From Rhodospirillales bacterium (lineage in GTDB: Bacteria > Pseudomonadota > Alphaproteobacteria > Rhodospirillales > Shumkoniaceae): 64,000 nt of DNA. Shown in pieces: positions 61,428-64,000 of the stretch; the first letter of the stretch is position 1; each line of letters starts with the position of its first letter. A program made the translations under genes and the position numbers. Under the pieces are notes generated by a model. It was not told the DNA's origin and ran no database searches. It saw nothing but the letters and a program-made list of their open reading frames with translations. The stretch is taken from positions 1 through 64,000 of the forward strand of contig JADHSV010000008.1 of assembly GCA_016776725.1 (NCBI GenBank), read 5' to 3'.

Positions 61428-63857
61428 TCAGGGAATAGGCGCAGACCAGTTGGGATCGGACGCCCCCGCCGGTGTCTTGAGTTCCCGCAAATTATGCCCA
61501 CTCAGGTTTATGGTGTAGAGGCGCGAGCGCCGGTCCCGGGATTGCTTGGCGAACATGAGCACCCGTCCATTGGGAGACCAGGTGGGGGAATTAACCAAAG
61601 CACCTTCATCCAACAGGCGTTCACCACCGCCGTCGGAACGCATTATCCCCAAAAACGACCGGCTGTTGTGTTTCTTCACGAAGGCGATCAGATCGCCGCG
61701 CGGAGACCATGCCGGGGCCACGTAATCTCCCTTGCCGAAACTGATCCTTTTCTTATCTTTCCCATCGTTATTCATGACGTAGAGCTGTGGCGTTCCGCCC
61801 CGGTCCGAATTGAAAACGATCCGCTTGCCGTTGGGTGAAAATCCCGGGGTCTTTTCGTCAGCGCTATGGCTGGTTAATTTTTTTACGGCCAGGGTTCGAA
61901 GGTTCATAACGACGATGTCCGAATTCCCGTTTTCATCCAATCCCATGATGACCGACTTGCCGTCCGGCGAAAAACGCGGATCGAATGTCACCCCCGAGAA
62001 TTTCCTGAGAACCTCCTGACGTCCCGTGTCCAGATTGAATATATACACCCGCCGCTTCTTGGAAAAATCAGACTGATAAGCGATTTCCTGCAATTTGGGC
62101 GAAAACCTTGGCGTGGCGGAACGGTAGCGTCCGTCGGTGATGAAACGGTGGTTTTCTCCGTCCTGATCCATGATTGCCAGGCGCTTTACGCGCTTATCCG
62201 GCGGTCCGCTTTCGGCGATGTAAACAATGCGGGTGTCAAAGTGCCCCTCGTCCCCGATTAGCCGCTCATAGATAGCGTCGGCGACAATATGGGCCACCCG
62301 CCGCCAATTCTCTTTGATCGTGGAATAAGATCGCCCCATCTGCTGCTGTCCGGCGACGACATCCCAAAGCCGGAAATTGATTTTCAGCTTCCCGGCGCCG
62401 CCCTTGCCGACGCTCCCCAACGCAAGGCTACGGGCGTTGATGACGCGCCAGTCATCGAAACGCGGCAGGGCGTTTGGTGAAATACTCGCCTGAATAAAGG
62501 CTCTCTCGTCTATGGGCCGGAAAAGGCCGGATCGTTCGAGGTCGGCGGTTATCACTTCGGCGATTTTTCGGCCAAGTTCGTTCTGCTCGGCATTTCCGCC
62601 GACAAAGGCAGGGATAGCGATTGGAAATGACGACGGTTTACGGCCCGGTCCCGGTGGCCTGGGCCTCGCCGGCGGGCGGGGCCTTGGACGAACGACGGCC
62701 GGAACCAGTTGTTTGGGGCGATTTGCGCCAGTATTTGGCGCAGGCCTTACGGCGGCCTGCTTTTGCAATTTCCTGATCTTGATGCGGGCAAGTCCGGCAA
62801 AGCTGCCGTTGGGATACTGGCTAAGGTAGGCTTCGAACATGTCCGGGTCCGCGCTGTCCTTGACCGATTGCCAGAACACCGTCTCCTTATCGGTGCCGGA
62901 CGTTGGCGATCCGGGCCGGGCGCGGATCGTCCCTTGGTCCGCGGGCACGGACGCCAGCTTGAAGACGAAATCCCCCTTGTTCAGTTCCGGATCGCGCATC
63001 TTGCCGTGGCGCGGTGTCTGGGCGTTGCGGGTATAGTTCGACATGGCGTCGGTCAGGTGCAATCCCAGTTCACTGGCCGTCAGGTAGCCGTCGCCGTTGG
63101 CGTCCGCCGGGCGCTTGCCCGCAAGCGTATCGACGAACATCTTGGCGAAGGTTCCATCATCGGAAACCAATTGTCCCGCTTCGCCCGATGTCAGGAACTG
63201 GCGCACGGGTTCCGCCGTTACTCTTGTGATGGCCGGGGGCGGCGCGGCGCGGGCGACATTGAAGATGGTGCCCGCGAAGCAACTGTCGAAGATGGTGAAG
63301 ACGTGCTTGGATTCAGCCAGCCGCATGAACTTGCCGAAATCACGCAACGAGATGGCCTTGCGAAGAAAACCGATACGCTCGCTTGGCAACGGGCCGTCGG
63401 TGGGAACCAGATAGCCCTCTCCTTTCATGGTATGGCCATGACCGGCATACCAGACGAAAAGACGGGCCTCGGGATAGGCGCCCTTCTCCAGGAAAAAGTC
63501 CTCGAACGCCTGCTCCAGCGCTGTCGCGTTCAAATCCAACTTAAGGGTAACGTCGAACCCTCGTTCCTTCAGCGCCGCAGCGACCAGACGCGCGTCTTTG
63601 CGGGCCTGGCTGAGCCTTCCCCAGCCGCCGGTATAGGTATCGTTGCCGACGACCAGCGCATAAGACCTGGCGTAAAGCTGCATGGTTCCGGCGATGGGCG
63701 CGTCCATGGACGCCGTCGCCCGGTACTGGAGCGTAAGCCCCCGCGTGGTGGCCGCCCCGGCGGCGGTCACGCAAAATACGGTCGCCGCTAATATACCGAT
63801 GAACAAGATACGCCCGAACCGCATGAAAACCGCCCGTGTAAATGTCTCAGCCGTCAT
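61428..63857 (-). CDS. Secreted caspase-like (metacaspase) / EF-hand / TolB fusion
   Basis: An 809-residue multidomain protein. Order: an export signal (hydrophobic segment 14-35); a caspase p20-like domain (65-245) with catalytic His140 in YAGHG and Cys193 in DSCFAG; a canonical EF-hand loop 252-263 (DANGDGYLTASE); a short helical repeat (FEAYLSQYPNGSFAGLARIKI); a Pro/Arg-rich linker (386-405); a TolB N-terminal domain (about 411-530); and a TolB-type propeller (541-809) with repeated FSPDGK-like blades. The ATG at 63857 overlaps the preceding gene's stop by 4 bases; a second start at 63824 is possible. Both halves look complete. Known metacaspases are calcium-activated Arg/Lys proteases, and TolB is a periplasmic partner of Pal; a fusion of the two is unusual. 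Confidence 0.85.
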   Translation of the reverse strand: MTAETFTRAVFMRFGRILFIGILAATVFCVTAAGAATTRGLTLQYRATASMDAPIAGTMQLYARSYALVVGNDTYTGGWGRLSQARKDARLVAAALKERGFDVTLKLDLNATALEQAFEDFFLEKGAYPEARLFVWYAGHGHTMKGEGYLVPTDGPLPSERIGFLRKAISLRDFGKFMRLAESKHVFTIFDSCFAGTIFNVARAAPPPAITRVTAEPVRQFLTSGEAGQLVSDDGTFAKMFVDTLAGKRPADANGDGYLTASELGLHLTDAMSNYTRNAQTPRHGKMRDPELNKGDFVFKLASVPADQGTIRARPGSPTSGTDKETVFWQSVKDSADPDMFEAYLSQYPNGSFAGLARIKIRKLQKQAAVRPAPNTGANRPKQLVPAVVRPRPRPPARPRPPGPGRKPSSFPIAIPAFVGGNAEQNELGRKIAEVITADLERSGLFRPIDERAFIQASISPNALPRFDDWRVINARSLALGSVGKGGAGKLKINFRLWDVVAGQQQMGRSYSTIKENWRRVAHIVADAIYERLIGDEGHFDTRIVYIAESGPPDKRVKRLAIMDQDGENHRFITDGRYRSATPRFSPKLQEIAYQSDFSKKRRVYIFNLDTGRQEVLRKFSGVTFDPRFSPDGKSVIMGLDENGNSDIVVMNLRTLAVKKLTSHSADEKTPGFSPNGKRIVFNSDRGGTPQLYVMNNDGKDKKRISFGKGDYVAPAWSPRGDLIAFVKKHNSRSFLGIMRSDGGGERLLDEGALVNSPTWSPNGRVLMFAKQSRDRRSRLYTINLSGHNLRELKTPAGASDPNWSAPIP

Positions 63858-64000
63858 TTTGATTTACCGACGACGATCCGCGCCGTCTGGTCGCGGCCGT
63901 AATAGCGCCGGGCGAAGTAGGTCAGGGTGCGCTGAAGATACCGATCCAGCTCGTCATAGCCGACCGTGCCGTCTTGATTGCCGTAGGGGTCGGCATCGGC
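63854..64000 (-). CDS. C-terminal end of a probable second caspase-type EF-hand protein (partial)
   Basis: The window cuts the gene, leaving 48 codons before TGA at 63854-63856. The remnant has an EF-hand-like stretch (DADPYGNQDGTVGYDEL, with a two-residue insertion) followed by a helix (RYLQRTLTYFARRYYGRDQTARI) that resembles the tail of bacterial caspase-family proteins. It overlaps the next gene by 4 bases, so both are in one operon. The identification rests on a short fragment. Confidence 0.5.
   Translation of the reverse strand, partial: ADADPYGNQDGTVGYDELDRYLQRTLTYFARRYYGRDQTARIVVGKSK

Follow-up and report, generated by a model that had tools for sequence, protein, structure and literature searches.

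The window, a 64,000-nucleotide stretch of contig C15 (JADHSV010000008.1; 76,885 bp) from a 2.48 Mb assembly in 52 contigs that is 74% complete, carries on its minus strand a single open reading frame (61428-63857) that runs for 809 codons without an internal stop and encodes a protein of 809 aa. From the N-terminus, the protein consists of a signal peptide and a caspase domain followed by a calcium-loop motif, then a linker and finally a complete TolB fold; all positions within it given below refer to the minus strand. Residues 1-36 (63750..63857) read by eye from the translation (MRFGRILFIGILAATVFCVTAAGA) as a Sec signal peptide, with a hydrophobic core and no lipobox; Met12 is an alternative possible start. 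The caspase (Peptidase_C14) half, which has a MALT1/metacaspase-like fold according to Pfam, AlphaFold2, Foldseek and the family alignment, occupies residues 37-300 (62958..63749). It is followed by a linker (residues 301-408; 62634..62957), in which the family motif FWQSVKDSADPDMFEAYLSQYPNGSFAGLAR precedes a Pro/Arg-rich stretch. The TolB_N domain (residues 409-505; 62343..62633), delimited by Pfam PF04052 and an alignment to 28 TolBs, and the TolB beta-propeller (residues ~540-805; 61443..62240) complete the protein.

The original prediction that a caspase and TolB are joined in one secreted protein was borne out by Pfam, NCBIfam and AlphaFold2, with secretion read by eye, and all three of the domain types in question (Peptidase_C14, TolB_N and PD40) were matched. 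Pfam Peptidase_C14 (PF00656) matched residues 65-196 with 57.4 bits (cut-off 21.4), TolB_N matched residues 409-505 with 97.9 bits (cut-off 22.4), PD40 repeats were also found, and the NCBIfam TolB equivalog TIGR02800 covered residues 409-805 with 383.7 bits against a cut-off of 343. A joint alignment of both halves placed TolBs onto the caspase, and the halves were modelled apart. Both models were confident: the caspase half (pLDDT 87) found MALT1 as its best PDB match in Foldseek, and the TolB half (pLDDT 86) aligned to E. coli TolB (3iax) over 395 residues with a VIA-align Z of 49.7.

The assembly is fragmented and incomplete, which would fit an artefact joining two genes, and a sequencing error between the halves had been named as one way in which the prediction could fail. 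The linker shows neither a stop nor a frameshift, and it carries the motif typical of the family. The TolB half, for its part, lacks both a signal peptide and a TolA box, and so does not look, from its sequence, like a free-standing tolB. An artificial join is therefore unlikely. The TolB half is, moreover, only 59% identical to the TolB encoded elsewhere in the genome, and we consider an assembly artefact highly improbable.

In the caspase half, both predicted catalytic residues are in place. His140 (63438..63440) and Cys193 (63279..63281) are identical in 36/36 aligned family members, and the His-Cys dyad of the fusion is intact. Residues 252-263 (63069..63104; DANGDGYLTASE) fit the 12-residue EF-hand loop pattern D-x-N-x-D-G-x-x-x-x-x-E, and loop positions 1, 3, 5, 6 and 12 (D252, N254, D256, G257 and E263) are likewise identical in 36/36 members; Pfam EF-hand models gave 11.9-13.3 bits on the fusion, below their cut-offs of about 25. 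Because the dyad and these loop positions are invariant throughout the alignment, the calcium loop belongs to the whole caspase family and not to the TolB fusion. The predicted calcium loop is thus a real motif, but it is not a trait of the fusion, and calcium dependence, if real, would therefore not be specific to the caspase-TolB arrangement.

This family of secreted caspases (type A) comprises 68 loci in the GTDB collection, mostly in Alpha- and Gammaproteobacteria, and is patchily distributed, occurring in 14/314 genomes of the order. Most relatives carry the same linker motif behind the caspase domain, and what comes after it varies. Among 48 members, the C-terminal modules were Sel1 (14/48), SH3_3 (13/48), FGE-sulfatase (8/48) and DUF1349 (4/48); Lcl_C, PPC, MORN, PEGA, PDZ, PAN, PG_binding_1 and TPR were each seen once or twice. 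The family is therefore modular, with interchangeable C-terminal modules behind a shared linker. The nearest relative of the fusion's caspase (L057:2333-3559, plus strand; 68% identity) has a C-terminus that by eye resembles the beginning of a prolyl isomerase of the cyclophilin type, is cut by the contig end and received no confirmation from Pfam. A C-terminal stretch (VDIWTYDKGSFERIIFDWP...) common to the type-A caspases L056/L113, L114 and L116 resembles AMIN by eye. The genome of the fusion (G000; 2.5 Mb, 74% complete) has 13 Peptidase_C14 matches, with SH3, MORN, PG-binding, PAN, PDZ and Prc as partners of its caspases, several of which are joined to envelope proteins (TolB, a DegP PDZ pair and Prc).

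The TolB half is complete in fold and strongly divergent in sequence. We compared it with 28 TolBs, one from this genome and 27 from the order to which it belongs. In this set 149 columns are invariant, of which the fusion alters 33 and keeps 116; when each real TolB was left out in turn, it changed 0-7 invariant columns. In a maximum-likelihood tree the branch leading to the fusion's TolB measures 0.94 substitutions per site, compared with <=0.29 for the other tips; the tree does not place the TolB duplication. A normal tolB does lie beside pal, for the genome has an ordinary, separate tolQ-R-A-B-pal-cpoB operon on contig C32, with names read from the translations and tolB confirmed by Pfam. 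The fusion gene lies outside any tol-pal operon.

These changes bear on the contacts by which TolB takes part in the Tol-Pal system. In E. coli, TolA is contacted by the first 12 residues of mature TolB, which are disordered, and Pal binding is lost in the H246A T292A double mutant (PMC7066135). The TolA box, D-I-T-x-G, is invariant in the 28 compared TolBs; the TolB_N match in the fusion begins at profile position 11, and the alignment places the Pro/Arg-rich linker where the box would be. Thus the description of this half as a 'full TolB' holds for the fold and fails for the TolA-binding N-terminus. We mapped H246 and T292 onto the fusion via PDB alignment, H246 being given in the older numbering (the one-residue shift for E. 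coli TolB residues is explained in PMC2821528). V623, at the position of H246, and D626, which replaces an invariant neighbouring Ala (61980..61991), are aligned with M and A, respectively, in 26/26 TolBs; H246 itself is accordingly not conserved in the order-level TolBs, in contrast to T292. D667-E668-K669 (61851..61859) stands where 26/26 TolBs have I-D-T, with K669 at the position of T292. S684 and D685, canyon positions that match colicin-A contacts, are unchanged, and by eye the counterparts of E. coli H146/D150/T165 appear to be kept as well.

The original prediction placed a calcium-gated protease at the cell envelope through a TolB-like module, where it might cut envelope partners. Spelled out, this model has a working TolB holding the caspase at Tol-Pal, with Pal or TolA among the candidate targets. 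A passed TIGR02800 cut-off, a complete fold and the retained canyon residues are consistent with this model, but the absent TolA box and the changed H246 and T292 equivalents speak against it, as does the family-wide occurrence of the calcium loop. Because the TolA box is lost and Pal-binding positions are changed, we judge it unlikely that the TolB half anchors the protease to Tol-Pal, and this part of the prediction was not upheld; on the alignments, a repurposed binding platform is more likely. Since S684 and D685 are unchanged, the TolB half may conceivably retain some Pal-like or colicin-like binding.

A second possibility is that the gene is neutral or decaying, having arisen by accident, with a TolB half that has no role and is drifting. 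Its being a singleton, its very long TolB branch and the presence of another tolB in the genome would all fit. Against this, the gene keeps 809 stop-free codons, an intact dyad and two halves that fold confidently; most TolB-invariant columns are kept, and codon composition is broadly similar along the gene. We therefore regard a neutral or decaying gene as improbable. The altered propeller might nonetheless be a relaxed, nearly neutral module, and because the fusion is a singleton, constraint on it is not measurable across orthologues.

The fusion is flanked by a gene for a PDZ-caspase and by one whose product resembles, by eye, a sugar isomerase. The former lies upstream and only its 3' end falls in the window (63854..64000, minus strand; contig C15:63854-65416, also L003:3854-5416), most of its length lying beyond it; it was missed in the original prediction. 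It overlaps the start of the fusion by 4 bp (ATGA) and encodes a signal peptide (by eye), a DegP-type PDZ1-PDZ2 pair and a caspase of a second kind, distinct from type A. Four genomes have a second-kind caspase next to one of type A: that of the fusion and those of L110/L051 (a single genome), L093 and L090, with differing gene orders and orientations. No PDZ domain was recognised in the second-kind caspases of the L093 and L090 pairs. The adjacency thus recurs; the two caspases may merely be neighbours, or they may cooperate.

The propeller of TolB has a central canyon that binds disordered peptides. We propose, with a probability of roughly 0.6, that the fusion is a modular secreted caspase carrying a duplicated TolB that has come off Tol-Pal and now serves as a recognition module for a new ligand. 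The caspase, which is conserved and has a calcium-loop motif of its own, is joined through a conserved linker to what would be an interchangeable recognition module. The duplicated TolB, whose TolA-contacting N-terminus is gone, whose Pal site is rewritten and whose fold is kept, would have left Tol-Pal, and the canyon of its propeller would now bind another envelope ligand, presumably in the periplasm. Binding would recruit a substrate to the caspase or switch the caspase on, probably with Ca2+, and perhaps together with the DegP-PDZ-caspase of the adjacent upstream gene.

We asked whether the same fusion occurs in other genomes. None was found among 100 relatives at E 0.001, and no TolB module was present among the 68 caspase loci of the GTDB collection. 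Strict-threshold scans of 317 genomes of the order, 385 of the class and 398 of the phylum, which may miss a fusion split into two weaker pieces, gave no second caspase-TolB fusion either. Long open frames at five other TolBs proved to be out-of-frame readings upstream of an ordinary tolB, and no second TolB was found in the genomes of caspase relatives that are cut off at contig ends. The original prediction knew of no description of the arrangement, and we found no paper on a caspase-TolB fusion in the literature searched. Bacterial metacaspases and orthocaspases (Asplund-Samuelsson et al., 2012; PMC3501461) resemble it in combining a His-Cys caspase with an interaction or enzyme module, their partners including WD40, TPR, Sel1 and FGE-sulfatase (PMC3501461). 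TolB is absent from the main text of that work, whereas the partner here is a full Tol-Pal-type TolB fold. The fusion thus extends a known kind, the modular bacterial caspase, with TolB as a new partner. With the TolB of Tol-Pal (TIGR02800; structures 3iax and 2hqs) it shares the N-terminal alpha/beta domain and propeller; it differs in having no TolA box, an altered Pal site and no tol-pal neighbours, and in lying behind a caspase.

TolB also serves group A colicins as their docking protein in the periplasm. This raises the idea of an integrated decoy, in which a caspase carries a degenerate envelope-protein bait and fires when a bacteriocin or phage binds. The binding of colicin TolB boxes in the TolB canyon (PMC2821528) would suit such a role, as would the fusion of several of the genome's caspases to envelope proteins, a weak match to the PADLOC caspase model and the patchy distribution of the family. 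However, colicins use the same canyon as Pal, in which several residues are changed in the fusion, and the other genes of the contig are metabolic or transport-related by eye, unlike those of a defence island. Most modules of the family (Sel1, SH3 and FGE-sulfatase) are, to our knowledge, not bacteriocin targets. We consider the decoy quite unlikely.

Bacterial caspases are mostly discussed for cell death, stress and defence. Under the preferred reading, a component of Tol-Pal would have been taken over by a secreted caspase and altered to act as its recognition half. This suggests that periplasmic caspases joined to proteins of envelope quality control form a modular family, and a periplasmic set whose sensor modules can be recognised would offer substrates and triggers open to test. 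A broader and distinctly speculative extension, which we think unlikely, is that these proteins form a periplasmic caspase surveillance set, with spare, degenerate copies of TolB, the DegP PDZ pair, Prc and possibly a cyclophilin as sensors or baits. If it were true, caspase activation would report that the envelope machinery is under attack or failing.

Two of these partners can be compared with their usual forms. The gene upstream of the fusion has the PDZ1-PDZ2 pair of DegP/HtrA (Do-family, TIGR02037), matching positions 229-432 of that model, but unlike DegP/HtrA it has no trypsin-like protease domain and carries a caspase in the same protein. On contig C45 (L047:1360-3612, minus strand), a 751-aa protein combines a Prc/CtpA S41 protease, above the family cut-off, with a caspase, and a second Prc-caspase protein, also with Prc above the family cut-off, is L156 in G122. 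Both contain the Prc protease of Prc/CtpA (TIGR00225) and differ from it in the caspase that follows the Prc part. At L109:4942-6744 (plus strand), a type-A caspase bears a C-terminal DegP-type PDZ pair.
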